Of a DNA stretch of 64,000 nucleotides, positions 34,801 through 56,271 are shown piece after piece; the first letter of the stretch is position 1; each line of letters begins with the position of its first letter. The position numbers were made by a program, and so were the translations under genes. Below the pieces are notes generated by a model, which worked only from the letters and a program-made list of their open reading frames with translations, searched no databases and was not told where the DNA came from. The stretch comes from Isoetes taiwanensis (lineage: Eukaryota > Streptophyta > Lycopodiopsida > Isoetales > Isoetaceae): the NCBI GenBank assembly GCA_021234155.1, contig JAJEKV010000023.1, positions 5,353,945 to 5,417,944 of the forward strand, read 5' to 3'.

Positions 34801-37684
34801 GGAGGTTGCTCATGGCTTTGTCCATCTCTCTTTTTGGGATCTTGTCTGTCTTGTCCTTTGCAATGTGAGAACTTGGATATGACCATACCACACCACCAAT
34901 TCCCTCCTTTGAGGATCAGCATGATTTGCCCTCCAGTTCTTCTCCCAACAGTCGGTGTATTGCTCCTTCAAGTTGCCCTTCTTGTGTCTTCCAATGGGCT
35001 CCCAATATTGAACTTGGAATCCAGGACGCAACTTCTCTCCATCCGCCATAGTGGTGGTTACATCAGAGAGTGCCACCCCTAACCATATTGGACAATCCTC
35101 ATCATCAGGCCTTACTAACACAAAGTATCCTTCCTTGATGTCCTCAAAGGGATCCCACTCAGGAAGATCAAACCACTTCAACTTTGAGGCCTTACTTCCC
35201 ACAAACCACTTGGAACCTTTGTTAGGACCCAAGTGAACATTCTTAGATGTGCTTGCTCCTTGAGAACCCTCCCATCTAGACTCTGGCAAGAACCCGTCTC
35301 TCAGCTCCCCCCCACATGGTTGTTCAGTTTCTAAGCATGTTACAACTTTCTCCCAGTAATTGATTAGGGAGTCCATGTGATTTTTCTTAAGAGTGGAGGT
35401 GTGCTTTCCATTTTGAACATCATCCCAGTGCGTTATATAATCCTTGATGCCCTTCACTAGTTGGCTAGAGTCTTTAATAGTCTTGAAGGGAGGTAGTGGT
35501 TTTGGCTGCCCTTTAAGAATAAGAACTTCACCTGTAGCACCCCGTTGCCAAAACTCGATTCCTTGTACAGGCATCCACAACTTGTCACCTGGTCTCCACT
35601 TATATTGCATGATTGGTATTCCATCCCTAACCCAAAACTTGACCTGAAGTGGCTTTGTGTGTCCTGTCAATTGATCCTTACCATCTAGCAAGTAACCCTC
35701 GACAAATGATTTCCAATCTGCAACCTCATCCATCAAGAAAGCCATTGGGTTGGGGTCAATGCAGCTCTCAAACACATCCATTAGTTCAGGGAGACTAGTC
35801 ACATTTTCTTTCTTGAGCTTGGTAGAGAAAGTTCCGAAGAATACATCTATATCATCATGCGTATGCCCAACCATCATGAACCCCACTTTCACAACTTTGA
35901 ATACTCCCACTGCTGTCAAGTATGACATTGCCCCAAACATCCATCTATTCTTGTTTTCTTTCCAACAGTTGTCCAATTGAACACATAGCTCCTCTGACAG
36001 TTGTTTCTCAAGTAAGGGGAAATCATCCCAAGTCCTCCTTGATTCACTAGACACCTTGGATGTGAGATTTTTTATCTGCCTTTGGTAACAAAGCAGTTGA
36101 TCATCCATCAAAGCCTCAAAAATGGGGGCCGATGGGGAATACCTCCTCCCCTCTATCGATCCTTTCTCTAGTGTTCTCAAGCACTTGAAAATACAGCTCA
36201 CATGGAAGTTTGGATCATCCCTCTATAGATCAAGCACAAAATGACCATAGGTTCCAGTTCCATGCCCATGTGTCAAGACACCCACCAGACTTACTTTCAT
36301 CTGAAAAACGTTTTGACAACGCTTGGGTAAAGGATCTAGCTTTGGCAAGAAAGTCTTGTGTTGGTCCATCTTATCATGAATTATACACAAAAATCTGTCA
36401 GGCTACATCTGAGAAAATGTTCTCCACTGCCAATACAACTGTCTACATGATATTTGGTCCCTTTGGTGATCTGCAAATTGCTCCCTAATTGCCATTCTTT
36501 CTTTCTCTTATTGCAGTTGATGCAAGTGTATCCTTGAGTTGAATGCAAGTGTTGCACTTTGAGAATGGCATGTGTTGCAGGACACTCACGTCTGAGAAGT
36601 GAATGCTCCATTACTTGCTGAAATGTGATTGAGAAAGAGGCCCAGTAGTTTCTAGGATGGAGTTGACCTCTTTAAGGCACTCTTTTTGGATGTAATGGTG
36701 TGGCAACACCCTTTGCACCACTCGCACACCGTGCTCGTTCACCTTCGACTTGTGGGGCATAGATTGAGACATGTATCTCACAAAGCTCTCAAAGACTGCA
36801 ATGGCCTTCAGAGTGTTTGCTCTAGGTTTCAAAGTCAGTGCATTGCCATGTTGGAACAACCTGTGCCCTTTTCTAACCTGCTCCCAGTATCTGTAAAATG
36901 AAGATTTGCTCACGCCAAGAATCCATCTCAATGCTCTCATACATACCTTCAGGCCCCTCAATTGATATAGTAACATTCCTGTGTTTTCATCATAGCTGGA
37001 ATTTCTACACAAGGAGTAGATGAAATTAATCCTATCTTTCTGAAGTTGTCCAATATATTGGGACCTTATCTGCACGAGGTCATCCACATTGTACTGGACT
37101 GTGCAATCTAGGTTGCAACACTCTAATTGCCTCTAGGTTTTCTTTGGTTGGGGCCATACCTTCCATCCTTTCTAAATATTTGTCACTTCTAGCCCTCTTG
37201 GGCACCCTTGGCTGCCTTTTATGAAAAATATAGTGCCTCTTCCTTGTGATCAAAGGATGCTCATCCACCACCAAATCTTCCACATGGCCTGGGGTGGGCC
37301 TTGGGGTATCTAATTCAGTAGGGCCTTCCAGACTCTCACCATTCTTGTGTGTAATATATCTAATTGGCTATCTTAACTGTGTTTGGGACTCCAACAACCC
37401 AGAGCACACAATGCAATCACCAGAGCTTCCCTGGGACATGATTGTATCAACTTGGATAAGAAGCTTCACAATGCCAACTCCAAGATGATCATCTCCCAGC
37501 CTTTCATCATTCACACTATCAAAAGGATCAACTGCATTTATGATGCCCTCTGCAAATACTGTCTCGTTGCAAGGGTGCAACAATAAGCAGGCCATCTTCC
37601 TCCATTGGAGCCTAGGGCAATGTCCTGTGCTGGGCTTCCTTGGCTCCATTTTGCTCATCTCACATGCTCCCTGAATGAAAGAGC

Positions 37685-37960
37685 ACACATTAAAACCATA
37701 TAGCTTTGAACACCACAAATATGACCATATAAACCATATAAAACCATACAAGCATATTAAATATCATATATAACCATTAAAACCATATCACCATATTAAA
37801 CCATATAACCATATTCAATATAAACCATATGTAAACATTAAAACCATATATAACCATTGAAATTATATAACCATATTATAAATATAAAACATATAAACAT
37901 AACCAATTTAGACCATGGTATCAACCATTTTATAACCATGGTATAAATCACATTAACCTT
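37685..37960. repeat. AT-rich 'accatata' minisatellite
   Basis: Irregular repeats of 'aaccatata', 'accatattaa' and 'aaccattaaa' just inside the long intron of the E1 minus-strand gene, next to its acceptor. It could affect splicing or be a leftover of expansion. No coding capacity. Confidence 0.75.
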
Positions 37961-38954
37961 TAATATCTTGTCCTGGCCACGTGGCGCCTCGTGAGAGGCT
38001 GATAGCGTGGCCACGTCAGCAATCCGCACTGCCACATCACGGAAGGCATGGCCCACACGTGACAGATCTTTATTATTGCACTTTTACGAGATTCGAGGGT
38101 GCAGCCAGAAATAACTGCACTCTCTTCCTCTTCCTTCCGGACCATTCTTCCTCCCCTGTTTTCTCTGTTTACTCTTCGCGCTCTCTGTTTTCTCTGTTCC
38201 CATCAGGCGATCGATCCCCTGTTACAAAATCGTGTCGACCGATCGCGACACATCCAGCGCCGAGGTTTTCGCGCAGTTTGAGTGCTCGAGCGGCCGCTAT
38301 TGGCTAAGAAGAAAGTGAGATATCTTGTTCTGTAAGTTCTATTTAGCTCTGTTTCTGTAAGTTTTTAGTTCTTCCATTAATCCTTTGTAGTGTTTAGAGG
38401 ACTCACTATCCCCTGATACAATTTCCAGCACGACAAATCCCTATTCTCGCTTTGCAAGCGCCTGTGTCAGCAAGGAATCGAACATGGAAGGTATCTGACA
38501 GGTATCTTCTTTCTCTATCTTCCCTGTTTTTTCATTTTTTGCTCTTTTTCACATCCTTTCACTATTTCATTTTCTAATATATATCTGTTCTTTGTTTTCT
38601 TTTCTGTTTTTGTTTTCTGCTTTTGTTTTTGTTTTCTGCTTTTGTTTTCAGTTTTTGTTTTTGTTCTATTTTGTTTTTGTACAGGCATAAGTAAGACTAG
38701 GGGCAAGCAACCGAATTAGGAATCATCCAGAGACAGGTGATAGGATGAAAAAAATGCATAGCACTAAGAAAAGAACATAACTAAGAATGTTTCATAACAG
38801 AAATTCCATAACAAGAGAAAGAACTATGAATGTGTCATTGCACAGAGCATTTTTAACACATAATTCAATCCTTTAGGTTTAGTGACTTTAAGTTAGACCA
38901 TTCTTCTGTTCTAACTCACAGAACATCCTCCCTTGCAGGAAAGGTGCAGACTAC

Positions 38955-39602
38955 ACCCTGCATTCTCGACTCGCGAGTCGGGAATGCCTCAGCCAGCCAG
39001 CACGTCTTTTCTCTACTAAGGACTCGATAATGCTATGGTCACCGCCTTTGTTTGCATTCTCGACTCGCGAGTCGAGAATGACTAGTACTTCCTGGAGTGT
39101 TAGCTGGCCTAGTCATTCTCGTCTCGCGAGTCGAGAATGCAGACAGCAAGCCAACATATTTTTTCTCATGCATTCTCGACTCGCAAGTCGAGAATGCCTT
39201 AGCCAGCCAATTCTCCCGTGTCTGCATTCTCGACTCGCGAATCGAGAATGCCTTAACCAGCCAGCACTCCAGGAGTACTACCTGGAGTTTTGGCTGGCTA
39301 AGGCATTCTCGACTTGCGAGTTGAGAATGCCTTAGCCAGCCAATTCTCCTGTGTCTGGTCGCAGGTGCCTCTATCCAGTCAGAGCCACTCTCCTTCGAAC
39401 CATCTTCCTCGAATATTGCGAAGGGGAGGGCCTCGGACTGGGTGGAGGCCTCTGCAACTAACCACAGGGAAATGCATCCCTTAAGGCCAGCATCCTTAAG
39501 GCGTTCTGGCTGTTTTCTTGACTCGCGAGTCGAGAAGGCCCGTCAGTATCGGCACGCGAGTTTTGGCTGGCTAAGGCATTCTCGACTTGCGAGTCGAGAA
39601 TG
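38955..39602. repeat. E1 palindrome cluster: eight copies around CTCGACTCGCGAGTCGAG
   Basis: Perfect or near-perfect palindromes centred on TCGCGA lie at 38960-38987, 39055-39080, 39114-39139, 39171-39196, 39225-39250, 39304-39329, 39514-39537 and 39576-39602. Most extend to CATT...AATG arms of 26 bp. The best copy (39055-39080) has no mismatch. Separating sequence such as 'cttagccagccaattctcc' is itself repeated. All lie inside the long intron of the E1 minus-strand gene. Confidence 0.95.
39368..39448. repeat. ~81-bp foldback hairpin, copy 1 (shared E1/E2)
   Basis: Left arm CCTCTATCCAGTCAGAGCC..CTCCTTCG pairs with right arm CGAAGGGGAG..CTCGGACTGGGTGGAGG around a loop containing GAATATT. The same hairpin occurs at 39641-39721 and, in the other cassette, at 52681-52761. 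Confidence 0.9.
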
Positions 39603-39640
39603 CCTTAGCCATCCAATTCTCCTGTCTCTGGTCCCAGGTG

Positions 39641-39721
39641 CCTTTAGCCTGTCTGAGCCCCTCTCCTTCGAACCATCTTCCTCGAATATTGCGAAGGGGA
39701 GTGGCTCGGACTGGGTGGAGG
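39641..39721. repeat. ~81-bp foldback hairpin, copy 2
   Basis: Same arms and loop as copy 1 with a few changes (CCTTTAGCCTGTCTGAGCC). It follows an E1 palindrome at a spacing like that of copy 1. Confidence 0.88.
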
Positions 39722-39870
39722 CCTCTGCGACTAACCACAGGGGGACATCCTTAAGGCCCTAGACCTAGCATGATCTATACACAACTAGCATGCCTAATAG
39801 ATACTCGGACTGGATGGAGCCCTTTGCTTCTAAACAGAAGGGAATCCATTCCAAGCAAAAATACAGACAC

Positions 39871-40150
39871 ATGAAATTGTTCGCGAGTTGCTCCGATTTA
39901 TAGTTCCCTCGCTGAGCATCTCTCTACCCAGAGAGTATCTCGACGCTGAAATATGCTCAACAAGGAAACCATAAATCGGGCGAGCTTTCGAACAGTTCCA
40001 TGATCAAAACAGGGAGCTGTTCGCGAGTTACTCCGATCTATTGTTTCCTTGACGAGCATCTCTCAACCCAGAGAGTTTATTTCATCTCTCGACGCTGAAA
40101 TATGCTCGACAAGGAAACAATAAATCGGTCGAGCTTTCAAGCAGTTCCAT
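39871..40150. repeat. Two tandem ~130-bp foldback elements
   Basis: Two copies (about 39871-40000 and 40014-40150), each an imperfect inverted repeat. The left arm 'tcgcgagttgctccgattta...tccctcgctgagcatc' pairs with the right arm 'atatgctcaacaaggaaacc...aaatcgggcgagctttcgaa'. The centre 'acccagagag' is the loop. Compensated differences between copies keep much of the pairing. Located in the same intron, just downstream of the DUF8039-like exon. Confidence 0.85.
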
Positions 40151-42137
40151 GTTCTACACACATCTAGCATGTTCTACACACATAATGAAACATGCATCTC
40201 TGAAATTCACCTCTTCTCGCAAGAGCTCCTTGGGCCATTGTATCACAGATCCCGCAGCCTCTCCGAGAGTCTTCGCTTCTTCTGTTGGCCTCATCAACAA
40301 TGCATCTGCATCAAATACTTGTATCAAAGCGATTCTCGTGTATCCCTTCTCCATGGCGCTGCAGTGAAGAGTGCCCGTGTCCTGCAGCTCATCTCCGGTT
40401 GCTATCTTGGCCCCATGCACATCGATCAAATCAACTAGTTTCAAGAAGACACACAGTTAGAACTAGACATAGAGTAAATCGTTGTTAGGAGCTTACAGCG
40501 TCATGGCGCCATGCGTGAACTTGTTCACAATCTATCTCCGCCTCCGGTTGCTATGCGCCCGAAAGTCTCCACTGCCGCTGTAAAACTATGCGCCCGAAAA
40601 TCTCCACTGCGCTCACTATACTTAGTCCCTGTAAATGAATCAATTTCGAATTGGTGTTTGGGAGGGCTAAAGTGGGCCTTGCTGTACCCTTAGCCCGTTT
40701 TTTTGCCTTGAATGATTATATGTTCTTAATTTCAAATTCAAGAACACGCCGGACCTTTTTTACGTGCAGTCCCAAAATCTCGAAGGCCCGGAAGATACTC
40801 GGTTTACAAGGGAATTCGAGCAGCAAGCGGATGCGGGGGCACACTGAGATGACGACTCCATCGAAGAAGCGGGTCACTGGAGCGGATGCGGGTTCTAGCG
40901 GAACCAAGAAAAGAAAGACAGGGGCGCTAGGTGAGCTCTCAATGTTTATTCGATTCATCGACCTTTTCTGATTCATCTTCTTGTCTTGCAGCATTTACGG
41001 CAGAGACGCTTTGCATCACTGCTAGAACTCCATTCTTCGTTATCGAAGGATTGGAGACAGAGCTACTTGAAACAACCGCCGATTCCTGGTGGTATGTCGA
41101 AGTTTCAATAAGTGGGAAGGAGAAAGATCTGTTCCTGTGGCAAAGGGATAAGAAGAGTTCCGGCGACAAGTACAAGAAGGTCGGTGTTGTGCTCTACGTT
41201 TCTGCGCCAGATTCGAAACATCTCACATTGTATGTGGAGGATTGCCTGAAGCGTAGGTTCTATCACACGAAGAAGTTATCAGTATCCAATTATTCTTCCA
41301 CTTCAATGAGCAAGTCCAAGGGGACCGACAAAAGGCCGGCGCCTTTAAATTGTCAGAACCTTGACTGGAAGGATCTGGAAGGGATGAAGGAGGCCGGAAC
41401 CCTGACATCTAGGGAGCTTGAAATGGAGATTTCCAGGGTGAGGGAGAAGCTGTTCAACACCGAGAACTTTACATCCAACGTGCTAAAGACTCTAAAGCAC
41501 TCTACAGTTACTAAGGATGTAGTTCCGAAAGAGAAAACTCCAGACAGGACTGCAAGTCAGGAAGCAGATGAGAATACACGGGAGGAATCAGATGCTGATG
41601 AAGAGGAAGAATTGGTCGACTCCCAATTCTTAGATCCAGATGAGCAGATAAGGAAATCACAGAGAGGGGCCCAGAAGATGGAGCGGCTGGCTCAGTATTA
41701 TCCATTAGGGATTGGACACAAGTTGCTGCTGGACATCAGACGCCTGAAGGTTTGCACTGGAGATGCCGTCTTGTTCAACCACAGGGAGTTTAATCCAGCA
41801 CACATGCTGGAGATTCTGAACCTGATGGTGCGTTATCCTGTTGCGGATCCAATGCCTGCAGATGTCATACCATTCAGCAGATCGACCGGTGAGTTGTTCA
41901 GGTGGACCACTGAGGAAGATCTGAAGGGAAAAGACGTCGGGTTTTGGGTTGTATACGGCCGGCATTCAGTGAGGGCCCAGCACAAGTATTCCAGATGGAG
42001 AAGGAAGTGCCGCAAAGGATCAAGGAAAGATGTTCCAAACGAGAGTGCAGAGTTCTCTCAGCGGACACGCCACCAATGGAGCTCGCCAGCATTAGCCACT
42101 GTCAGAATACAATAGCAGCAAGTGCCAGCTACATAAG

Positions 42138-42813
42138 GTAAATTACTGTCTCTGATTGGGGGGTTTCTCGACTCGAGAATACAATAGCAGCAAGTGCCAG
42201 CTATATAAGGTAAATTACTGTCTCTGATTGGGGGCTTTCTCGACTCGCGAGTCGAGAAACCCCACTGGAACTCAGGAAGTCAGAGGATGCGTGGGCTTTC
42301 GCGAGTCAAGAAAGCCCAGAGAAGTAAAGGAAATTAGAGGATGCAGGAGCTTTCTCGACTCGCGAGTCGAGAAAGCCAGAGGCAAAAAGGGAAGAAGAGG
42401 ACGAAGGGGCTTTCTCGACTCGTGAGTCAAGAAAGTCTCTTGAATCTTCTTTCATGTGCTCCTCTGACTTTCTCGACTCGGAGTCGAGAATCCCCAGGGT
42501 AATAGAGAGAACATTAGAGATTAATGGTTGAAGAGTGAAAGCATCGAGCCTTCCCAATCTTTCTTTCCCCGCCTCTTCGGGCAATGTCGCTTAGTTTATA
42601 TCCTAAGTTGCGTCGTTCGAAGAGGCGTGAAAGCAAAGATTTGGGAATGCGTGATGCTTTCGCTCTGGCCTTGACTCTCCTATGTTCTCTCCTCTCCTGT
42701 GGGTATTCTCGACTCGCGAGTCGAGAAAGCCCCTGCATCCTCCTATTTCTTGTTTCCCTCGAGTTTTAGGATATACTTTCATGCTCTAACATAGTTCCAT
42801 TTATTAAATGCAG
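42138..42813 (+). repeat. E1 intron packed with palindromes (about seven copies)
   Basis: Intron between AAG|GTAAAT and AATGCAG. Palindromic copies lie near 42163-42180 (half lost), 42236-42259, 42298-42317 (partial), 42349-42376, 42409-42435, 42467-42490 (centre shortened) and 42703-42730. About 59 bp around the donor are duplicated (42116-42174 against 42175-42233), so the donor sequence GTAAATTACTG occurs twice. Confidence 0.93.
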
Positions 42814-44425
42814 CCCATATCCTGACCAGATCATACACGCTCGGCAACAGTGGAAAACATTAGGTTGTTCTCAACGTTCTAAAGGAAACAGGGCTCCCTC
42901 GGATAAGTGGAAGGCCTTCGAGAAACTCTGCAGATATGTTCTTCTGGAAGGCCAGGAAGATGATGAGGGAGAGGATGAAAATGAGAAGAAGAAGAGAACA
43001 CCAAGAAAGGGCAGGGAATCTCTATCAGACCAATATGACCTCATTCTTAGCACTGAGGCGGTCTGGGAGAAACGGACTGAGATATGGGCTCTATGGACAA
43101 GAGGCAAGCTTAAGGACAGCAATGGAGAATTGTCAACCAGGCCAGACCCAAAGTTGTTCGACAAGCAATTCATGAAAAGGATACAGGGCCTGACGGACAA
43201 AGAAATGCTTGATCTACAGGGCAGAATCCTGGATGGAACAATCCTGCTAAGGAAAAGTAGAAGTTCAAAATTGCAGGACGCAAAGGATTACGCCACAATT
43301 CTAAAGAGACGCGTGCGTGCGTTAGAAGAAGGCATCACAGAGTTTTGCAATGTTGCCTCCAATGCATGCCACGATTTTGATTATTATAAGGAGAAGGCTG
43401 CGCTTGATGAGGAAGACATGAAGGAGTTGAACCGTCTATGTCAACCCTATATCAACACGAAGCTAAAGCGTAACGTCAAAACCCTCCCCGTCCCTGAACG
43501 TGCTATGGCACTTCTGAAGAGGAAGCTTGGATTCGGGGTGGTCCCATTTAAGACCGATGATAGCTCCCCTCCATTCCTGGTAACCTTGGGACACAAGGGG
43601 TTTGGTGATCTGGAACTGGCACCTGGGTCCGTGGCACTATTTTCCATGAATATGATCGAAGACCCCACTCTATTTTATGAAAAGGTGACATTGAGCAGTG
43701 GTACAGGACGTGTCTAGACATGACCGAGCTGGATACTTTCAGTTTCCTTATCTTTTGCATGCCGGGCAATCAGACAACTGCTGTGTCACAATGGGCAGCA
43801 GATATTAACTTCACCAACAGGATCTTGTATTCCATATACGAACTGGAACATGAGTGCAGAATTGGCCTGCCGAAGGCACCAAGTTTTGCCAATATAGTTT
43901 TGGTTATGGTTTCCAGATCGTATGCAGACCTGGACAAGTGGTGGTCTAGCGAGCACCACTATCTCGATAAGTTCATGATTTCTCAAGAGCTTATGGAACT
44001 CTGGAAGGGCGGCAGATTTATGGAGGATGTGACATTGATGGACAAAGTCAGCACTGATGGTGCGACAGGTCCAATACATAGATTTCCTATCCGGCCAAGA
44101 GTTATCAAGTACTTCATAACCAACTTGGTCGAGGAAGATCAAATTGTGTGCGAGTGGTACATGAATGGCCTGTTCTCTCAGGGGGCTATGCTGTATGGAA
44201 TGAAACCAATATCCATGGTTGGGAATAAGGACATGGTTAAAACCATTCGTCATACCTGGACCTGCTTCATGAGCATTTCAAAGAGAGGAAGATAGCTGGA
44301 AGCAATAAGGACGATGATGACGAAGACAAAGCTGACAGCCAGGGAGATAAAGATGACGGAGACGAGAATGTCCAAGGTTTAGACGAGAATGCTGCGGAAC
44401 AAATTTTGGAGAATCTGAGATTGAG

Positions 44426-44556
44426 GTGAGTTCACTTTGCTCTCGGAGTGTTTCTCGACTCGCGAGTCGAGAAACCCTCCGATTCATTAACTTTTTCCTT
44501 TCTCGACTCGTGAGTCGAGAAAGTCGTTTCTTATCTGACGTCTTTCATCATTTCAG
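44426..44556 (+). repeat. 131-nt E1 intron holding two palindromes
   Basis: Donor GAG|GTGAGT and acceptor TTTCAG|GG bound the intron. It contains TTTCTCGACTCGCGAGTCGA-type palindromes at 44451-44474 and 44497-44522. Nearly half of the intron is palindrome. Confidence 0.93.
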
Positions 44557-45534
44557 GGACATCGAGCGCAACCAATCCGGATCATTGACAATATCACAGG
44601 GATCTGCTGGCGGTTCAGTTCATGAGGAGGATACTGCATCCAAGAAAGGCAGTCAAGAGCAAGACAGTGCGGGCAGCAAGAAAGGACTTGGAAAAATGAT
44701 GATCCCGCATATGGATCCCGAGCAAGGGGAAATCTGGTCAGAGCCAAACTCTAACTGGGATCCAGAGGGTCCCACCAAGCTTATAATATTTGACGTCAAT
44801 GGAGTATTAGCTGCAGTATACCACGATAAAGACGTCCCTGAGCTTAACACCTCGCAGATGCTGACAAAAGCGGGGTCTAAAATCGTGTATCCTCGGCCTA
44901 AAGCAAAGGAGATTATTGATTGGTGCCTGGAACGCGGATTCGAAGTGGCCATATGGTCTTGTATGGCAAAGAAAAATGTTGTCAATGTCCTTGGTGTTCT
45001 CGGCCTTCCAGTTTTGAAGTTTAAGTTTGTTTGGGGAAACAAAAGGGTCGAGCATGTGTCAGACCTCGATCCAGCCATCACAAAGGGGAAGCCTATTATG
45101 GTGAAAAGGCTGGAGAGGGTTTTTGAAGCATACCAAGACTTTAACAAACACAACACGCTGATCATAGACGACTCCGCCTACAAGTGCTATCATAACTCGC
45201 ACAATACAATCATTGCCAAGAGTTATCGACCAGAAGAGTATGAAACGGATAGGTGGTTGTTTTTCAATCTCGTTCTTGTGTTGGCGGAATCCCTGTTTGC
45301 CATTCTTGTGGCCAATGTGATTAGGAACTATCCAAACCTCAAGCAGGTCGATCCTGAGAGCAGCGCGATCATGAAAGTTATGGACGACAAATATTATGGT
45401 GATCAAGAAGAGTGACTTCTGCTTTCAGATAGTCGAGTTGTGTAAATCTTGTAAAGAAACGTGAAGAAATGTACTATAAAGCACAATTTCATTATAATGG
45501 GAAAATTTTTAGTAAACTGGAATTCTTTTATTAT

Positions 45535-45690
45535 GGGGGTTGTATAGACCTTATGCAGGGGTTGTATACATGTGTACAGTACCCTATATCATAGACCTTA
45601 TGCAGGGGTTGTATACGCGTGTACAGTACCATGTATCATAGACCTTATGCAGGGGTTGTATACACGTGCAGTACCCGTATATCATACATA
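45535..45690. repeat. Three copies of a 47-bp tandem repeat
   Basis: 'atagaccttatgcaggggtt' occurs at 45544, 45591 and 45638. Each is followed by a near-palindromic 'gtatac(a/g)(t/c)gtgtacagtacc'. It lies 120 bp beyond the E1 gene stop and may mark the E1 3' flank. Confidence 0.92.
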
Positions 45691-45699
45691 CATGAATAT

Positions 45700-46278
45700 T
45701 TAGAGAACATAATAACACGGTATCATATACCAACTTCCATTAGGAAACCAGAGCTCACGCATATCCCAGCCTGATTCTTCCCACCATATGGGGTATCTAG
45801 TCATTGCAAAAAGTAATTCCACGGGATGATACTCACGGAAGAAGAGCGGACCCAACTCCACAAAACCATTGTACTCATTGTAGTACGTCCTAATAAGGCC
45901 ATACATCTGTCCCTTACAAATTTCACGAATGAACTCTGATATGTATTGATCCAGAAAGTGTGCTAAATATCCAGCACGAAGAAGAGGCCTCAATTGCTGT
46001 AGCATCTCGTCCAGAAAAGGAGGGGGTTCAAGAATTCCCCTCATTGCAAGTCTCCTATAACATTCAGATGGATTAATTTCCATCAGTGGCTCATGACCAC
46101 AATCAAATCGCTCCAGAATGAAGTTGATCAACTCCATTGTAAGCTCCTTGGTGGGACTGTGGCGCAACCTCCACTCCAAGAAATGGTCAAATAGCTCATC
46201 AGTTCCAGGCCGCACAGAATGGCTGGGGCATGCTTGCAGGCCTTCTGGAGTAGCCCAGGGGGGATTGGGTCCAATCAT
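45700..46278 (-). CDS. Unidentified 192-residue protein
   Basis: Open frame from ATG 46278 (MIGPNPPWATPEG) to the stop at 45700. The frame stays open further upstream, but there it runs through a repetitive purine-rich tract, so I chose this start. The product is rich in Trp, Tyr, Pro and Leu with an acidic helical middle (LFDHFLEWRLRHSPTKEL, ECYRRLAMRGILEPPPF) and an aromatic C-terminus (PIWWEESGWDMRELWFPNGSW). I know no family. It sits between cassettes E1 and E2, next to several minisatellites, and could be an extra gene of either element. Confidence 0.4.
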   Translation of the reverse strand: MIGPNPPWATPEGLQACPSHSVRPGTDELFDHFLEWRLRHSPTKELTMELINFILERFDCGHEPLMEINPSECYRRLAMRGILEPPPFLDEMLQQLRPLLRAGYLAHFLDQYISEFIREICKGQMYGLIRTYYNEYNGFVELGPLFFREYHPVELLFAMTRYPIWWEESGWDMRELWFPNGSWYMIPCYYVL

Positions 46279-46289
46279 TTGCAAAAGCA

Positions 46290-46800
46290 AGCAAGGATCA
46301 CCGACGGAACAAGGAACACGGAGCGGAGCAGAGAAAGTAGCAAGATCAAGAGCAAGGAACAAGATCAAGTAGCAAGGAGCACGGGAATGAAGTAGCAAGG
46401 AACAAGGATCAAGATCAAGTAGCAAGGAGCAATGAACAAGGAAGATCAAGTGCTAAGAAGATCAAGGAACAAGGAAGATCAAGGAGCAAGAAGCAAGGAT
46501 CAAGATCAAGTAGCAAGGAACAAGATCAAGTAGCAAGATCAAGTAGCAAGATCAAGAGCAAGGAACAAGATTAAGTAGCAAGGAGCACGGGAATGAAGTA
46601 GCAAGGAACAAGGATCAAGATCAAGTAGCAAGAAGCAATGAACAAGGAAGATCAAGTAGCAAGAAGATCAAGGAACAAGGAAGATCAAGTAGCAAGAAGA
46701 TCAAGGAACAAGGAAGATCAAGTAACAAGAAGATCAAGGAACAAGGAAGATGAAGGAGCAAGAAGCAAGGAACAAGATCAAGTAGCAAGGTGAAAAGTGA
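46290..46800. repeat. Purine-rich minisatellite (aagatcaagtagcaaggaac type)
   Basis: About 500 bp built from shuffled short units: 'aagatcaag', 'tagcaagg', 'aacaagg'. Longer blocks are also duplicated (for example 'ggagcacgggaatgaagtag' near 46376 and 46582). It reads without stops in one minus frame only because of its composition. Confidence 0.93.
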
Positions 46801-46838
46801 GAAGCGAAAGGAAGGTGAAAGAATTTAAAGCTACGAAT

Positions 46839-46935
46839 CCAATAATGTTGAAGTATAATACCAATAATGTTGAAGTATAATACCAATAATGCTGACGTAT
46901 AATACCAATAATGCTGAAGTATTATACCAATAATT
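46839..46935. repeat. 22-bp tandem repeat, about 4.5 copies
   Basis: 'ccaataatgttgaagtataa' starts at 46839, 46861, 46883 and 46905, with a partial copy at 46927. The period is exactly 22. Confidence 0.93.
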
Positions 46936-46940
46936 CTACA

Positions 46941-47228
46941 ATGACTATAAAAGCAGCTCCATTCGGTGGTAGAAGTCATTCATCTCCCATGGCTTATAAT
47001 ATTTATGAAGATCGGTTTGAGACCATTATTTGCTCCATGAGCTACAATGATATTGTTCGGTGCATACATAAAGGTGTTAAGCTGGATCCCTACTTACAAT
47101 CCAAAGCAGATGGTCCTGAGTGTCATTGCCCTGGCCTTACTCGTGTTGTGATCCATATTCTTTGGCTTCCTGAGCGCCATGCCTACGAGCTGAATGGGAT
47201 CACGTTAGCAGGGATTGAAGATGAGTGA
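46941..47228 (+). CDS. Unidentified small protein (95 residues)
   Basis: ATG 46941 to TGA 47228. The product starts MTIKAAPFGGRSHSSPMAYN and contains IICSMSYNDIVRCIHKGV and ECHCPGLTRVVIHILWLPERH. It has four Cys and a balanced composition that looks coding, but no family I know. It lies between E1 and E2, downstream of a 22-bp tandem repeat. It may be an exon of a longer gene or a leftover. Confidence 0.35.
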   Translation: MTIKAAPFGGRSHSSPMAYNIYEDRFETIICSMSYNDIVRCIHKGVKLDPYLQSKADGPECHCPGLTRVVIHILWLPERHAYELNGITLAGIEDE

Positions 47229-47484
47229 ATCATCGACTCTATAATGCCATCAATAATATGTGCATCTAAATTATATGTATGCCATCAATAATGTGTGCAT
47301 CAGATGTAATGATGTGTATTAAACACCTATTATAAAAGATGTAAGGATGTAGTATAAGCATAATGAAAGATAATTGATGTATCGACTGGGTATTAATTGT
47401 ATAAAATGCAGCTGTATTATAGCAAAAGAAATTACATACATGATTATCGAGAACATGACTGAGATTGAGAGCTTTTAGCTAATG

Positions 47485-50400
47485 CTATGTCCCCCCACAT
47501 GTCAACAATGTATTTTGGAATCTGAACAGTCTTCGGTCTTTTGCATTTGCATCCCATGCATAATGTATGACATCTAACTTCTCATACCTTGATGGATCTG
47601 ATGGATTGGGTCGCCAACGTTTAGTTAAGCAACCTGTATAGTCACGACCAATAGGCATCCATCATGATACATAAATGTGACCATAATTGGTAGACTCTGG
47701 ATCTAGGATGGCATCTTCTTCTGTAAAGCCCAACCACGTTGGAGTTTCATCATCTCCAGGTCGGACTAAAACGAACATACCTTTCGTAACATGTGCATGA
47801 GGATCGAACTCATCCATAGGTAACACTGGACGCCCATCTGCTGGCCCACAATACGTAGGCAAAGGTCTTACAAGCACAGCGGCTTCATCGACCTCTGGAG
47901 TAAATGCAGCTTATAGAGGTTCTTGCCTTGTACGCAACCAAAAGTTATCATTTTGAGGTCGTCCTGGATATACATCTTCCAAACACAAAAGAATCTCGTT
48001 CCAGTAATCCATAGTTGCTTTGTACTGTCGTGCAAACACACTATCTTCTTGATTTTTGCAGAAGGAATTCTATAATGCTATATGCACTTGCGATGCCGTC
48101 TGCCCGGGCCGGGGAGATCTTTCAATGTCTTCCTTGGAGGGATATTTTTAGGCACCCCTGTTGGTAACATTGGCTCACCATTTTCATCCTCCTTCCACAT
48201 TCTTATTCCATTTTCTGGAATCCACTCTTTATGGGTTGGCCGCATCTTATATTGCATAATGGGCCATTTCCCATCCATTTTAAATCGGAATAGCAATGGG
48301 TCGGTATGGCTGTTAGGCGTTGGCCCTTATCGAGGGGATATATCCCTTGACAAAGCCTTTCCAATCACGGAACTTCATCCACAAAATATGGAACATGAGA
48401 CTTTGCATTGCACTTGCTAAACAAGTAAAGCAACTCAGGCAAAGTTAGAGCATCCGATGAATTCATTAACGTCGAAAAGTTCCCAAACAATGCATCAATA
48501 TCGTCATGAGTGTGCCCAACCATCATGAAGCCAACCTGAATCTCATCGAATACTTTAAGCCATGTCAAATAAGAGAGGTAGGAGAACACATATCTATTTT
48601 TATTTTGACCCGATGCATTATCCAACTGTAAGTAGAGATTTCGAGGAAGAGGATTGAAGCCTTCTAAGTAGGCACCAGAAGATGAAGGCATCTTCTCTTG
48701 TGTCTGCGCTAGCTTATGCTGCAGTGGTCGAGTATCTTTTAGGGCTTGTATCAATTTGCAATCTGTAGTACAGCTTCCACACAGATCACCACACTTGTCT
48801 TCTTCCGGCAACTCAAGATAGTGTAGGATCCTAGAAAGTGATCCAACATGAAAGTTTGAGTCATCCTTCCAAAGATCAAGAGAGAAATGGCCATAAGCCC
48901 GTCCACCATGACCATGTATCAATGCTCCTGTCAAGCCGCTCTTCAAGCGATCTCCTCTCCAAACAGACTTTGCGAGATGGTGACTTCTTGGTGTGAGTGT
49001 TTTGACCTGATCCATCTTATCATGTGTCATACAAAGGTGACTTTCTGGCGAACGATGTGATAATGCACGCCAATGCCAATATTGACTCCTACAGGAACGT
49101 TATTCCAACATATGTGCCTGCCGTTGAATTGAAAGGTTGCGCCTCTCCCTTGTATCTTTTGTTCTTTCCAATTTCTGCTTGATGACTACACATATGTTAC
49201 ACTTGGAGAATCTTTGTATTTTTGCTATCTTGTATTTGGAAACTCTTTCTTCCAAATATTGTAAAAAGAGGGCAAGGTTACACTCTTTCCCGTCAATTCT
49301 TCCACCACGGCACCCATTTCCTTATGTATGCTCTTCTTATTAAGGATGGAAGGAAGTTTGCGAACATTCTCCCTTATATCATCCTTTCCTTTTTTTCTTC
49401 TATGTGGAATGCTCTCCGCATTCTCACTAATGAAGGTATCAAGCACACTTTCTGTAGCTAGTGTCACAGATCTAGGCTTCTTAGAGCCTGTATTACCATG
49501 CTCCGCCCGTTTTCCACCTAACTCGAACCTCTTCCTCCAACTATAAAACGTAGACTGAGCAACTCCTAAAGCCCGGCGCCATGCGAATTGACAAAGACTC
49601 CACTCCGGAGACCACTATTTTTAGCCTCCGACCGCCTGTATAAGTTACACTCAACACATCAAAAAACAAGCGTAATCCTCGGCCTTTGCTTGATTGAGAA
49701 TAAAATTCTTTTCTTAAGGCACATACTTGCTCTCGGCTCAGTTTTTTGACACATTCGTCCTTGCAGCATGTTGATTTTAGAGCACTCTTGATTGACTTGG
49801 AAGCGCACATCCTCTCCTCCTTGCTATCCCCCTTTGGTTCTTTCCTGGCCCTCTTCACATATGTATATTTCCTTTTCCTCTTGAATTGCTTCTCAACATC
49901 AGCTTCCAAGCACTCAACTTCTAAGTCATCCTGTTCGAGAGCAGCTCGAGCTTGTAAATGTTGTGAAACTGTCCTACCATCATGAAGCAAAACATCATGG
50001 GTCTCCCAGGTTACTAGACTGTTAGCTAGAGGCCTCTCAGCACAAGCATGACATGACCTGATATTTTGGTTTCCCGTTGGATCTATTATGTTACCCACTG
50101 AAAGCCCGACCTTTGATTCACCCAAGAACTCATCGTCTATAGCATCCTGAGGATCACTAAAGACTATATTCGCCTCCAAATACTTAGATCCAATGCAGAG
50201 TGAAGAATGTAGCATGGCAAACCTAGTAGATCTGTTCTAGAGTAGTAGACTGTCTCATCTTCAGGCTTAAACAACCTGAGACCAAGACGGGCAGCTAGAT
50301 TCTCATGACCTCTAATCTCCTCTACTATCTCATCTTCTTCATTTGTTGCTGTGTTGCTTGGTTCACCATAGTGAGCAGTGAAACTGATGTCTGGCGGGCT

Positions 50401-50722
50401 ACTGACAGATGGACTACTAGATGAATCCTCTTCTGAAGAGGGCAAATTGAGGGATCTCGAAGACGTATCTTCACTTGAGGGGCACTCAACATTTTTTACA
50501 TCCCTCTTAGGCCACTGAATGAATGTGTCTACTGCTTCACCAATGTTATCTGCCCCTCCGCAGGGGACTGGAAGCTCCGTCGATGGGATCACGGACTCCA
50601 TGACCTCAATTGCTACATTTAAAGGATCTATTTCCCTCCCATGAAGAGTGGTTCTCTTCAAAATATGGCCTGGGGCAACAATTGTCCTTCCGACGAATAG
50701 GTTGTACAGGGGAAAATTGAAC
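47485..50722 (-). pseudogene. Cassette E2 minus-strand gene: DUF8039-like plus DUF7869-like transposase candidate
   Basis: Homologue of the E1 minus-strand gene. The exon starts at 50722 after acceptor GAAACAG. In order: NLFVGRTIVAPGHIL and NIGEAVDTFIQWPKRD (DUF8039-like, about 50720-50500); a Ser/Glu-rich linker; ANIVFSDPQDAIDDEFLG; a basic segment; a Cys/HTH-like stretch ending ALGVAQSTFYSWRKRFELGG (about 49590-49520); and KSVTLPSFYNIWKKEF with a CNIC pair. Then come HDKMDQ (49027), GHGGRAYGHFSLDLW, LQLDNASGQNKNR, GFMMVGHTHDDID and a FVLVRPGDDETPTWLGF segment. The C-terminus runs past an in-frame TGA (47664-47662, Trp in E1) to 47485. Frameshifts occur near 49590, 49225-49030 and 48300. GHTHDDID with an upstream LDN suggests an RNase H-like transposase core (inference). 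Dead as written. Confidence 0.72.
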
Positions 50723-50855
50723 CTGTTTCAATCAAGCAAGGCGACACTTTTTAGAACATATGAATTAGACGAAAAATAAGCACTAAACAAGCAAAAATGG
50801 TGCCATTTAATACAAAAGAATAAAATTTGGTGTAAATTTGGAGCTAAATGGTGAA

Positions 50856-51050
50856 CACTTGGATCAAATGGCGCCATGGCGCCATTTGATCCAAGTGCAC
50901 CATTTCGACTAAATGGCGCCATGGCTCCATTTGGCTCCAAATTTACATTTCGACCGTACACCATTTCAACCGAATGGCGTTATGGCGCCATTCAGACCAA
51001 AACCCCATTTTAGTGTATTTGGGCCAGAATGGCGCCCTGGCGCCATTTGA
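50856..51050. repeat. E2 palindrome cluster in the upstream intron
   Basis: Copies of the ATGGCGCCATGGCGCCAT palindrome. The first, 50856-50897, is a perfect 42-bp palindrome extending to CACTTGGATC on the left and GATCCAAGTG on the right. Weaker copies lie at about 50914-50936, 50972-50992 and 51028-51050. They lie upstream of the E2 minus-gene acceptor, so probably in its first intron. Confidence 0.93.
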
Positions 51051-51384
51051 TCCAAGTGGGTGCCATGGGGCGATTTGGCTTAGCTCCATCACAAAATCTA
51101 CACGAGGTGCCTATGCTATGCATTCTTGCTCCCATTGCTGTATATGTGTCAATAAGAGCAGGCATGCATAACATGGGCACCCCATGCCAACTTTGCAATT
51201 GAAACCAAGGTTCTTAGTGTCCTAGCAGCATTAATGTCAGCATTTGAACACGCTATACACATGGCAGCAATAGAACAGAATTCATACCAGAAATAGTGGA
51301 CTTACTTGATATTAGATAGATCCATAGTGGTATGTCCTGGAGCAGTAGAAGGAACAGGAAAATCAAGCTGATCCCAGCAGATAA

Positions 51385-51500
51385 ATTCGCAGAAGAATGC
51401 GCCAAGAAGAAAGCGCCAAGAAGGATTCGCCAAGAAGAAAGCGCCAAGAATCACCTGGGATTTCTGTGAGCGCCAAGAAGAAAGCGCCTGACAGCACGCA
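51385..51500. repeat. 'cgccaagaagaaag' minisatellite
   Basis: Irregular repeats of 'gcgccaagaagaaagcgcc' and 'ggattcgccaagaag'. They share the GCGCC word with the E2 palindrome but are not palindromic. Confidence 0.8.
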
Positions 51501-51699
51501 TGCGCCTTGCAAAGTTTCTGCCTAGGCGCCTGAGAAAAGAAGCGCGCCTTATGCGAGCGGCAGCTGAAACGAGCAGGCGGATTCGAAGGCGTCTGAACCG
51601 TGCACGAAAACGTCTGCGTCGTGCCATGGTCGCTTTAAGAGAAAGAACGGCGACAAAGAGGGAGCTTTAAATGCAAAGTAAAATTTTAAAAACGGACGA

Positions 51700-51920
51700 T
51701 TCAAATTTGGACAGGTGGCAGTCAAATTTCAATTTACGGGCGGGAATTTTGACTTTTATGTTAATTGCGGGCGGGATTTTTTGAATTTTATGTTCAAATT
51801 TAGGCGGGCGGGCGTTAGGGCGGGAAATATTCGAATTTCAAAATTCAAATTTGGGCGGGCATGGGCGCCTGGACCGCCACGGGCATGGGCGGGCATGGGC
51901 GCCTGGACAGCCTCGGGCCC
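51700..51920. repeat. GC-rich 'gggcgggcatgggcgcctgg' repeats
   Basis: Low-complexity block of GGGCGGG with AATTTTGAATTT interruptions, and two copies of 'gggcatgggcgcctgga'. It directly precedes the proposed first exon of the E2 plus-strand gene and may overlap its promoter. Confidence 0.8.
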
Positions 51921-52248
51921 TAGTTGGCCGCCTGTGGTACAGCAGACAGCCAGCGGCCAAAGTTAGTTATGCCTAATTGTTTTTCTGAAGCACCTCATTC
52001 GGTTTTTTCGTTTTCGATTCCAGCTCCTAGCGCCTCGACCTTAGCCGCCAGCGCCCAGCGCCTAAAGCAACCCTTTTTCGTCCTTTATTTTCAGTGTTTT
52101 CTGGCGCCATTTCCCCACAGTTCAACGCATCAACACATCAAGCTACACATTAGTTTTCAGACCAAATTCAAGGCGCTCGAAATAGAAATCGACAATTCTG
52201 GAGCTCCTCAGAATGTGGAGACAGCGGCTAGCGCACCTCAAGGGACAG

Positions 52249-52932
52249 GTATGTCATCTACTTGCATTGTTTTGTTTGGGCTAAATGGCGCCACCACACC
52301 ATTTAGATGCCTGGTAGCCAGTTTAAGGTCTTATAGTTGACAAATGGCGCCATGGCGCCATTTGGATGCCTGAGCGCACTTTAGGAGTCTATTAGCTTAC
52401 TTTAGGATGCCTAGTAGCTTACTCTAGGGAGTCTTATTGTTACCAAATGGCGCCATGGCGCCATTTGATGTCTATTAGCTTACATTAGGGCCTTGTTGTT
52501 GGCAAATGGCGCCATGGCGCCATTTGATGTCTATTAGCTTACCATAGGGCCTTGTTGTTGGCAAATGGCGCCATGGCGCTATTCGATGTCTATTAGCATA
52601 CATTTGGGCCTTGTTGTTGGCAAATGGCGCCAAACAGGAGTCATTCGCATATGTATTGCTCCTCCAACGAATCGCAGGTGCCTCTACCCAGTCAGAGCCA
52701 CTCTCCTTCCAACCATCTTCCGCGAATATTGCGAAGGGGAGGGGCTCGGACTGGGTGGAGGCCTCTGCGAACAAACGCAGGGAAATGCATACGAACTGCT
52801 TCCATGTGCTTATGCACTGGACTCAGATGCAAATGGCGCCACAGCGCCATTTGCCTACCACAACTGATTGTCTGCCTGCTTGTTAAAACCATTTACTGAT
52901 GCCTCTTTGTTACTGATGCCCCTTTGTTGCAG
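52249..52932 (+). repeat. E2 intron 1 with five to six palindromes and the shared hairpin
   Basis: Palindrome copies at 52342-52363, 52445-52466, 52504-52525 (all perfect), 52563-52584 (two changes) and 52831-52852 (centre altered), plus a half copy near 52622. 'tgatgtctattagcttacat'-type spacers repeat with them at about 59-bp intervals between 52445 and 52620. The donor is CAG|GTATGT and the acceptor TTGCAG. Confidence 0.94.
52681..52761. repeat. ~81-bp foldback hairpin, copy 3 (in E2)
   Basis: Arms CCTCTACCCAGTCAGAGCC and GGGCTCGGACTGGGTGGAGG, with CTCCTTCC/GAAGGGGAG inside, around a GAATATT loop. Apart from a few bases it equals the two E1 copies, including flanks 'tcgcaggtg' and 'cagggaaatgcat'. 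Confidence 0.92.
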
Positions 52933-54606
52933 CTATATTACGTCCGGAAACACAATTTCAATCCGACCAGACTATCATGCTGATAGACAGGTACTGGTAC
53001 ATGGAAGTAATGCGGGTGAGCCCCTCTACTGCTACAGGCTCGAAAGGAGACTGCAGAAGAGAGCACTGCTTCCTTATAAAGGAGACAGCCCCAGAATCAG
53101 CCGGAATTTACCAGCCAGGTATCTTGGTCCACATGAAGATGGTTGTCAAGAGTGGTCGCGAGGATTGGATCCGGGTGGTCTGTGAGGATACTATGCAGCA
53201 GAGAATAATTGTCTACTATGTGGACTGGAAGTTTTATGATCCCACTGTAATGTCTGCTAGTTGCAAATGTAGCTGGTTCGGCGAAGAAGCAAGGCTGGGC
53301 GCTGCCATGAAGAAGCTGACATCAAAGGCCCACAAGAAATCTTGAGGGGCTTTATGATTCTTCGCAATCGTATGAACGAGTCGAAAAACTCGCCTTCATT
53401 CGTTGTCAAGGCATTAGCTCAGCAGAAACTACCCGTCATTGTGGACACGGCCTGGCTAAAAACAGTTAGCAAGAAGAAGACAAGACAAACTAAGGAGACA
53501 CCTGCAGCCGAAAAAGACTCCTCATCTTCTACTGAGGATGTTGTCCAGGAAACTGACGAAGGAAAGGCGGCGGGCAAGCAGAAAGTTAAGAGAAAGGTTC
53601 ACAAAGATCCAGAGACGGAAAAGAAGGAAAAGAAGGAAGAGAAGGAAAAGGAAGAGAAGGAAAAGAAGGAAAAGAAAGAGAGGGAAAGGGATGGCAAGGG
53701 GCAGAAGGAAGGAAAGGCGAGAAAGGAAAAGGAGGGAAGGGAAGTGGAGACAGAGGAAATGGAAGGGAAAAAGAAGAAGAAGAAGCACAGGCTGGAGACC
53801 TCCGAGAAGGATAGGACACCAAAAAAGCAAAGAAGGCAGACTCAGACTCCTAGTCCTGCTGGAAGCCCAAGAAGTGGTGGTGAACCTCCAAGCCCATCGC
53901 ATAGCCAGGATCCTGCGGGCACACCGGCCAAAAGGGTCACCATTCAGAAGCCAGAGCGCAAGCTTACCTTAAGAATTGCTTAGCACTTGCTAGAGGTGCC
54001 TGCAAACCTTAAGGTGGAAAGGCCAGAAGAGGAAAAGACGGCAGAGAATACACTGCAAAAAATTTACGATCACCGGCATCTGTTTCCTCTGGGTGTCACA
54101 TTTATAAAAAAGATAGACGTGTTCAAACTATATCAAGGGCCAGCAAATCTGACATCTAGACCAAGGAATATGGAGCACGTCAAAACGTTAGTGGAGTCCT
54201 TTCAGAGAGACCCACATCCAGTGTTCATTCCCGCTGATGTGATTCCATTCAATCCCCTCACAAACAAACTGGTCCCTTGGAAAACCGAGGATGCCCTCAT
54301 GGGGATTATATAGTGAATGGCAATCATTCAGTTATGGCTGCTCAGCTTGTATGTAGAAGACTCGGCACAACAAAGTCCCAAGAGCAAATGTCAAAGATTT
54401 ATCTTCAACGGAATTGCCGAGTCTTATCTGGCACAGTCAACGAACAAGAATGCCTGCAGCTCAGTTGTGAAGTCAATGATATCACTGCGAAGACTATTTT
54501 CAAAGAGCCGTTCATTGATAACATAACCCACCTGCGGCAGCGATATGCTCTATGCGGGAAGCCTGATCCATCGGGACGCGGGCAGTCACGCTCAGAACCA
54601 TACAAG

Positions 54607-54792
54607 GTACATACTGTTGTAATTGTTGGCAAGATTAGCAACGCGGCGCCATTTAGTGAGGAAATGGCGTCCGCGGCGCCATTCCTCACTAAATGGCCGC
54701 GGCTGCTTTTGCTCATTAAATGTCATTCAAGGCTAACTTCTTGTTGTTTCCAACGTTATCTGGCTTTGGCTGAAGTTACCATGCGTGGTAAG
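54607..54792 (+). repeat. E2 intron 2 with a GGCGCC inverted repeat
   Basis: 'ggcgccatttagtgaggaaa' (from about 54645) pairs with 'cggcgccattcctcactaaa' (from about 54675). They form a hairpin of about 25-bp arms, again built on GGCGCCATT. The donor AAG|GTACAT is clear. The acceptor GGTAAG before 54793 keeps frame but has a weak pyrimidine tract. Confidence 0.7.
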
Positions 54793-56271
54793 CATCCAAA
54801 AGATTTCAACCAGTGGGTCTTCATGCCAGAGGATATTTTTTAGTTATTCATGTCCCTATGGAACTTGTGGAAATCTGGCAAGCTACAAGATAACAAGGGA
54901 CAAACTATTACTTGTAACTGGGCAAAAGATCATGACTACTTCAGTCAGACCTACCTGAGGTGCATGAGGGGTCTCGACTACTTAAGACCGCCGGGTTTTG
55001 TTCGTGAAGTCTTTGGATGGGAAGACCTTCGTCAAGGTCACCAGTGATTATACAGGTAAGCAATTCTTCAAGGCAAGGGCAAAGACACTACGATCTATAT
55101 CGTTCTTGAAGAAGGAGATTATGTGAAGGATAATTTTCCGAGGAAGTTCAAATCCTTCACTGATCTCAGTACTGCCGTGGCGGGCTTCGAGGATACCGAC
55201 CTGGTTTCCATGGGCACCTTGCATAGTAAGTGGGTTGAAGTTGGAGTGACCAAGGAAGGAGTTTTCGGTAACGTGCCACCTGCCTTGGCAAGATATATAC
55301 GCAATGCTGTCTTGCAGAGAGAGGATACTAAAGACTTCCGTTGCGAAGTTGAACTAACTGACAGCAGGGGGCAAGTTGTTTGCACTCCTGTACCAGCATC
55401 CTTGATAGCCCTGGATACTAGAGGCATAATTCCAATGTGGGACAGAACCACACTATCTAATTTCTTTAATACAACTGTAAAGAACACCACAGCTGATTCT
55501 TTCTGGATAGTGGTCTTTGCAAGGCCAGAGCATAACTTTTTGATTTCATCTGTGTTGGATGATCTGGATTCCAGATCCAGAGTTTTTATTGGCATGTATG
55601 AGGACGAATACAAGAATCCGCCTGCCCCAGGAGTTCAGGAGCTCCATGCACTAGTGTACGCCACAAAAATTCAGGCCACTGCAGGTCATCCTTTCGATGA
55701 AATTGACCTGAGATTCCCGTTTGCCGATCATCCTCAAGAACTGCCACCAGTTCCTGTACCTAATGAAGAAGACGAAGACGGGGAGACCGAGACTATGGCC
55801 GGGAAGCTCTGCAACAGCAGATTCAGGTACAGCTGGCAAGGCTTGCCAGGGGATATAATCATGAGAAACCAGCTGGGGCCTGCCACATGCTCCTATCTCG
55901 TGCAGAAAATGGTACTGCCAGGAACAGGAGTTTTTGATTACTTCTCCTGTGGTTCGTTTGGCCGGGCTTCATTGATGAATAAGAGATTTTGCATTGTCTT
56001 CGAAAGTGACCCGGTTAAGCAGGAGTGCCTAAAGGGCATTCTTGGTAGGCTTGACCGCCTCCCCATCGCAACAGTTCCTGTGACAGAGAGACCAGCTGCT
56101 GTAGTTGAAGAAGCTGTAGATCCACCAAATCCAGTGATACCTGAAGCTCAACCCGATGTGGACTATGACGTGATCAGGAATACACAATTCAATCTAGATG
56201 TTCTTGATGATCCCAATTTTACAGCCACAGCGTTCGAGAGCTTTCAAGGAGATTCTAGGTGCTTCTTCTAG

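Follow-up and report, generated by a model that had tools for sequence, protein, structure and literature searches.

A stretch of 64,000 nucleotides from the genome of the lycopod Isoetes taiwanensis (assembly GCA_021234155.1, contig JAJEKV010000023.1, positions 5,353,945 to 5,417,944 of the forward strand; hereafter, the window) contains two DNA transposons, E1 and E2, one inserted in the other. In both, a minus-strand gene for a transposase-like protein of the DUF7869 family diverges from a plus-strand partner gene that encodes a ParB-like region followed by a methylase-like domain, and arrays of palindromes lie between the two genes. Both appear to be cut-and-paste DNA transposons of the Sola type, in two families of old divergence. 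The interpretation we favor, to which we give about even weight, is that the partner protein of such a transposon binds the element's own palindromes.

An earlier note on this DNA, made from the sequence alone, had described the elements as neighbors (E1 at 34.8-45.4 kb, E2 at 47.5-56.3 kb). This side-by-side layout is ruled out by comparison of the window with 8 other copies (E1a-d and E2a-d) fetched from the genome, of which 1.66 Gb were searched. In blastn alignments, three of the four E1 copies match the window up to 45473-45478 and resume at 56610-56613 with no sequence between, and the fourth continues unbroken across the E2 insertion site, matching at 70 of 75 bases; the E2 insertion is absent from this site in all four. 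Because the E1 copies run through the 45478/56610 junction without E2, we conclude that E2 (45479-56609) is nested in E1 (34575-57855), the 3' part of which, past the insertion, occupies 56614-57855. In the comparison with the window, homology to the E2 copies begins at 45479 and stops at 56609.

Both elements have terminal inverted repeats (TIRs) and target site duplications (TSDs). The TIRs of E1 lie at 34575-34597 (plus strand, AAGTCGCATTTAATTAAAGTGGG) and 57833-57855 (minus strand), flanked by CCAA at 34571-34574 and 57856-57859; copy E1d has a near-identical left end and the TSD CTTT, so that a duplication is seen in both E1 copies with both ends read. The TIRs of E2 lie at 45479-45500 (plus strand, AAGCACAATTTCATTATAATGG, present also in three further copies) and 56588-56609 (minus strand), flanked within E1 by TATA at 45475-45478 and 56610-56613; all four E2 copies with both ends read carry a TSD (TATA in the window, E2c and E2d, and GAAT in E2b). 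The termini are AAGTCGYATTTAATTAAA in E1 and AAGCACAATTTCATTATAATG in E2. The third family, E3, described below, has TIRs as well, and all 8 copies that were read at both ends (two of E1, four of E2, two of E3) carry a 4-bp TSD. Thus, terminal repeats with target duplications, sought in further copies, were found, and E1 and E2 are real DNA transposons that make 4-bp target duplications. The window copies themselves look decayed because both of their genes show overlapping reading frames that we read by eye as frameshifts; other E1 and E2 copies have longer open frames.

The minus-strand genes match DUF7869 (PF25273) far over the cut-off, with E-values of 4.6e-36 in E1 and 1.3e-36 in E2, and identity between these regions of the two elements is 42% across their common part. 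A motif scan located HDKMDQ, LDN and GHTHDDID in both elements where the earlier note had reported them. In E1, the DUF7869 exon with the C-terminal domain occupies 34810-36222, followed at 36361-37132 by HDKMDQ (36361-36378) and a helix-turn-helix (HTH)-like exon (36611-37132) that is matched in tblastn to E2b (1.2e-19). In E2, the C-terminal domain, identified by tblastn from E1, lies at 47581-48069, the HDKMDQ-LDN-GHTHDDID core with the DUF7869 match at 48365-49099, and the HTH-like and N-terminal part at 49225-50727, where the frames overlap in the window and E2b has a single 546-amino-acid frame. In a 7-row alignment, the aspartates of [I/H]D.MDQ, QLDN and HTHD.ID are conserved among the sequences that span them, one E3 copy having HTHYQID in place of HTHD.ID. 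The DUF7869 protein would act as a DDD transposase, cutting at the AAG..CTT ends and generating the 4-bp duplications; the ends and the duplications are observed, the catalysis is predicted. The genome holds at least 150 DUF7869 matches (150 of 9908 candidates scored), and the open-licence literature that we searched includes no paper naming this family.

The plus-strand motifs PADVIPF, GxHSVxA, CRVLS and GKLxD were likewise located by the scan in both elements. The partner gene of E1 consists of a predicted first exon (40639-40930, an open frame with a GT donor at 40931), a ParB-like exon (40992-42115, its frame near the exon end unlike that of other copies), a methylase-like exon (42770-44295, two overlapping frames here and a single frame of 539-551 amino acids in four other copies) and a last exon (44357-45415), not named in the earlier note, that resembles NLI/FCP1 phosphatases (PF03031, 4.8e-9, 36.5 bits against a cut-off of 21.8). 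In E2, the N-terminal exon, a coiled region and the ParB-like domain occupy approximately 52933-54843, with a change of frame near 54240, and the methylase-like exon lies at 55060-56271. The earlier note gave the first intron the same place and phase in both elements: by eye, the acceptor does fall at the matching residue (AAF/AAI), in phase 1, whereas the E2 donor was not identified, and the intron itself is predicted from the sequence rather than from a transcript.

The two partner genes are homologous yet far diverged. The ParB-like region of E2 retrieves the E1 frame of the window at 6.7e-11 and one E1 copy at 3.8e-16, and profile comparison of the methylase-like exons gives P=4.9e-4 over 359 columns; the compared E1 and E2 proteins are 27-42% identical. 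The proposal that these are two families of one element type that split long ago, each pairing a transposase-like gene with a ParB/methyltransferase-like gene in divergent orientation, is therefore upheld. The phosphatase-like exon of E1 is probably a passenger because its dN/dS (ratio of nonsynonymous to synonymous substitution rates) is 0.67-0.99 over its length and it is interrupted by stops and frameshifts in all four other copies; it reads DVNG where DxDx, the NLI/FCP1 phosphatase motif, is expected.

Searches of the genome yielded at least 150 matches to the E1 exon (150 of 2510 candidates scored) and at least 107 to the E2 exon (103 of 3083). The two genes also occur together elsewhere: among the best 150 DUF7869 and the best 150 N6_N4_Mtase places, which are top scorers and not a random sample, a limit that weighs on the count, there are 24 pairs no more than 15 kb apart, 22 of them divergent, compared to a chance expectation of 0.4 and to 7 pairs in a tenfold wider distance band. 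Four further DUF7869 loci of other families (L033-L036), hand-picked for long frames, were read over 10 kb, and at each of them the partner gene lies, whole or in part, on the divergent side: ParB-like and methylase exons in L033 and L036, the N-terminal and ParB-like parts in L035, and the N-terminal exon alone in L034, the homology of the N-terminal exon being 1.2e-61 in L034 and 4.3e-85 in L035.

The third family, E3, is 8.3 kb long in L037+L038, with termini AACAAGATTGC..TGTT and the TSDs AAAC and ATAT in the two copies with both ends read. Its partner protein contains an intact-looking N6/N4 methylase, with motif IV (DLPYG or DIPYG) followed by motif I (DAFSGSGTT), that matches PF01555 (N6_N4_Mtase) over the cut-off (5.4e-15 and 7.4e-17), and the E3 methylase profile retrieves CcrM (8.8e-11), MboIIA and RsrI among solved structures. 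Searched against prokaryote genome contigs, the same profile found 8 loci, 7 of them in a metagenome-assembled genome (MAG) named uncultured Trichormus sp. This MAG has 8 DUF7869 matches, and on 5 of its 7 methylase contigs such a match is divergent from a ParB motif, so that the gene pair recurs there as well; the MAG elements, too, retain methylase motifs IV and I. Trichormus azollae resides in the fern Azolla. Given this habitat, together with frames that are split as if by introns and, on one contig, a retrotransposon-like fragment recognized by eye, the transposon contigs are probably DNA of the Azolla host that ended up in the bin of its symbiont.

The palindrome arrays suggest a role for the partner protein. 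With inverted repeats called at arms of at least 10 and spacers of at most 6 nucleotides, the window contains 16, all in predicted non-coding parts (11 in E1 and 5 in E2), compared to 0-2 in each of ten Markov resamples. Perfect and imperfect palindromes of the E1 family, TTCTCGACTCGCGAGTCGAGAA, lie between the divergent genes (38963-39629), four more are in the predicted intron between the ParB-like and methylase-like exons (42236-42727), two in the predicted intron ahead of the phosphatase-like domain (44450-44523), and others near the 3' end (56653-56678 and 56904-56933, with a one-mismatch copy at 56782-56803). The five inverted repeats of the E2 family, AAATGGCGCCATGGCGCCATTT, are intergenic (50856-52854). 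In E3, the palindromes are found between the divergent genes and also in partner-gene introns. Near matches (up to 3 mismatches) to the palindrome of the own family number 4-20 in E1 copies, 6-15 in E2 copies and 5-9 in E3 copies (5 of 6); of the 14 fetched copies, 13 show family-specificity, as does the window, and no fetched copy carries the palindrome of another family. Exact palindromes occur at 3678 (E1) and 957 (E2) places in the genome, compared to 0 for the reversed control. On the MAG contigs, all 20 inverted repeats found, on 4 of 5 contigs, lie between the transposase and ParB motifs, most with GTCGAT..ATCGAC cores. From the near-match counts and the locations of the arrays, we conclude that the sequence of the palindromes is family-specific and that their position is largely kept. 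Two exceptions weigh against this generality: the diverged locus L033, the fourteenth fetched copy, has no family palindrome, and MAG contig C433 has no such palindromes.

A separate observation concerns a 120-bp imperfect palindrome common to E1 (39358-39477, with a second copy near 39632-39742) and E2 (52672-52790), about 92% identical between the two elements, compared to 27-42% for the proteins, and with a predicted RNA fold of -60 to -71 kcal/mol. It is present, often repeatedly, in 7 of the 8 fetched E1 and E2 copies (not in E1a, and weak in E2a) and in none of 6 E3 loci. This likeness could reflect either exchange between the families or strong constraint. The idea that it is an independent small element was dropped because at least 13 of its 46 matches, judged by eye, fall in E1 or E2 copies.

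The methyltransferase reading of the second domain is confirmed for E3, by the over-threshold PF01555 match and the profile matches to CcrM and others; for E1 and E2, its support is the common architecture and a weak profile match. In E1 and E2, PF01555 gives no match at E 1, and the combined E1+E2 profile matches that of E3 at motif I (71 columns, P=4.3e-4, compared to 0.026 for E2 alone and 0.32 for E1 alone). A motif IV of the form [DNS]-(x)-P-[YFW] is absent from all 8 E2 exon copies, and a remnant of motif I, DYF[ST]CGS, is present in all four copies viewed (DYFSCGSF in the window). In both E1 copies viewed, the place of motif I reads WYMNGLF. All 8 E1 exon copies contain the tetrapeptide SPPF, but away from the position that aligns with motif IV and 57 residues ahead of the following strand, compared to about 38 for the E3 counterpart; the loss of motif IV in E1 therefore hinges on the alignment, a point against the interpretation we favor. 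By sequence, then, the methylase part appears to have lost its enzyme motifs in E2 and probably also in E1. This SPPF, which resembles a motif IV at an unexpected place, belongs to a stretch of the E1 exon (window 42770-43717 and copies), DDSSPPFLVTLGHKG, that is conserved in 8 of 8 copies, of which one reads DDRSPPF and one has LITLG.

Despite the lost motifs, the E2 methylase-like domain is apparently still under purifying selection. For this exon, pairs of close copies give dN/dS of 0.31-0.65 and pairs from different lineages 0.11-0.20, the latter at dS of 2.0-2.9, where dS near 2 is near saturation and 2 of the 28 pairs are saturated; in E1, dN/dS of the methylase-like exon is 0.17-0.48. 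The copies compared were chosen for open frames, which biases these values downwards, and this, along with the saturation, weakens the case for selection.

These results bear on an alternative account, self-methylation. The partner protein would be an enzymatically active DNA methylase and would mark the DNA of its own transposon, as put forward by the authors of the Ectocarpus study discussed below (PMC12477816), and the palindromes would be its target or loading sites. The retention of motifs IV and I in E3 and in the MAG elements, the at least 150 PF01555 matches in the genome (150 of 1444 candidates scored) and the SPPF tetrapeptide of E1 are in line with this account, yet E2 lacks motif IV and E1 lacks motif I, while dN/dS of the E2 domain is low, and we consider it rather unlikely.

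Statistically, the ParB assignment is weak. Aligned by eye, the region follows the order of ParB, with a helix and P..V stretch, then G-x-H-S in place of GERR, then GLT.(D/E)EA...A..HN in place of L(S/T)(D/E)EA...A..EN. The ParB-like regions of E1/E2 and E3 are related to each other (P=1e-4), and the assignment made in the earlier note gains weak support from TIGR03764, which matches 2 of 12 members and reaches 5.8e-4 (19.6 bits, far under the cut-off of 143.75) at residues 154-289 of the E3 copy L037; DUF6551 gives sub-threshold matches in 6 of 12 element proteins. Several results speak against it. PF02195 (ParB_N) is absent from the whole genome at E 0.1, a threshold at which it is detected in 11 of 14 control genomes; no ParB was found when the ParB-like profile was compared with solved structures; and comparison with a bacterial ParB profile, built from the 6 of 10 gathered sequences that had the motif anchor (4 were dropped), is not significant, with P of 0.19 for the E3 type, 0.083 for E1/E2 and 0.22 for all, compared to 0.63, 0.12 and 0.47, respectively, for the reversed element profiles. 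The AlphaFold models are too low in mean confidence score (pLDDT) to indicate a fold, with 34.2 for the ParB-like region (6 sequences) and 33.8 for the E2 methylase-like exon (2 sequences). In the non-significant profile alignment, the Box II arginines of ParB (GERRxR) are replaced by x-H-S, the histidine and serine being invariant in 12 of 12 sequences; because of this replacement, ParB-like nucleotide switching by the partner protein seems unlikely.

Under the interpretation we favor, the partner protein, with its ParB-like domain and N6/N4-methylase-type domain, would bind the palindrome array of its own family, a recognition suggested by the position and family-specificity of the arrays, and this binding may regulate both genes and label the element as self. 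The protein could also methylate the palindrome sites in E3 and the MAG elements, whereas in E2, and probably in E1, the methylase part would serve as a non-enzymatic binding or dimerizing domain. Apart from the ParB results and the other limits named above, two points count against this interpretation. The transposase could equally be the palindrome binder, and the transposase gene was not found in the fetched stretch of three of the four E1 copies (E1a-c). These three copies (L009-L014) have an open partner exon; their left terminus was not found, and in E1b and E1c homology stops near an AT-rich repeat at the position of window 37.72-37.98 kb.

A second alternative is that the palindromes are binding sites of the transposase or of a host factor and that the partner protein has some other role. 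Repeated internal sites are often bound by transposases, E1 palindromes are also present in the 3' subterminal region, and the HTH-like stretch of the E2 transposase has a PF13551 match (2.3e-4), albeit under the cut-off. The arrays, however, are mostly intergenic or in partner-gene introns rather than symmetric near both termini, and the palindromes found on the MAG contigs are all intergenic; we give this alternative the same low weight as self-methylation. That the partner gene is a mere passenger, a captured methylase gene with no role in transposition, is very unlikely: transposons do capture genes and the phosphatase-like exon of E1 behaves like one such, but the same gene pair is present in three families here, in the MAG contigs and in algae, and dN/dS of the E2 exon is low.

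The pairing of a transposase with a ParB-methyltransferase protein, which the earlier note took to be undescribed, has already been published. According to PMC12477816, the transposase gene of the 21.5 kb Sola1-1_Ec32 of Ectocarpus is accompanied by an opposite-strand gene whose product combines ParB-like and N4/N6 DNA methyltransferase domains, and green and red algal cases of the gene pair are cited there (Iyer 2011, Petroll 2025). Judged by this published description, the same gene pair in a DNA transposon is seen here, but the host of Sola1-1_Ec32 is a brown alga, whereas E1 and E2 have degenerate methylase parts and E1 has a phosphatase-like exon besides. The Sola superfamily is characterized, in PMC10741241, by a DDD transposase, a 4-bp TSD and variable TIRs, has been reported from the moss Physcomitrella, and is uncommon among angiosperms; E1, E2 and E3 share the 4-bp TSD and TIRs, a likeness drawn from that description and not from a Sola1 transposase sequence, which tempers the assignment to Sola.

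Two other known systems are comparable. Phage proteins that fuse a ParB-type fold to an N6_N4 methylase, in which DUF6551 is joined to ParB folds, are described in PMC12704722, and the sub-threshold DUF6551 matches of the element proteins recall them; unlike the phage genes, the element genes bear introns, reside in transposons and have the Box II arginines replaced. The annotated phages gave 73 methylase matches, all distant (<60% identity), and no match for the ParB-like region; no viral relatives of the transposase or the ParB region were found, and the methylase had three short viral matches. Fungal DNA transposons with TET/JBP genes, as presented in the available part of PMC12730594, similarly combine a DNA transposon with a DNA-modification accessory gene, but the enzyme is a different one and the superfamilies are not Sola. 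Among the matches listed in the open-licence literature searched, we found no land-plant report of the gene pair and no description of palindrome arrays in such transposons; thus, the family-specific arrays are apparently new, and the decay of the methylating part looks new.

Three further features of the sequence can be mentioned. E2 contains a third open frame (45700-46452, minus strand), present also in E2b and E2c, to which no function is assigned: it matches no Pfam family over the cut-off, and its dN/dS is 0.36-0.94, with frameshift counts from the pairwise alignments that look unreliable. Downstream of the transposon cluster, the window has a frame with a WRKY domain (62886-63533). The genome also has at least 149 matches (150 of 528 candidates scored) to DUF4216, a domain that usually accompanies CACTA-type transposons.

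Overall, an accessory gene of the prokaryotic ParB-methylase type, already known from transposons of algae, is now found in many copies in a plant genome. The selection data suggest that the accessory domain persists after the decay of its methylase motifs. More tentatively, and with some doubt, we propose that these plant nuclear transposons might carry a working counterpart of ParB/parS, in which a ParB-like protein and its palindrome array diverge together as a self-recognition code of each family, methylation being optional and lost in some families with the domain kept in a non-catalytic capacity. The family-specific palindrome arrays offer a handle on the role of the accessory protein and a means by which such transposons could be recognized and classified elsewhere.

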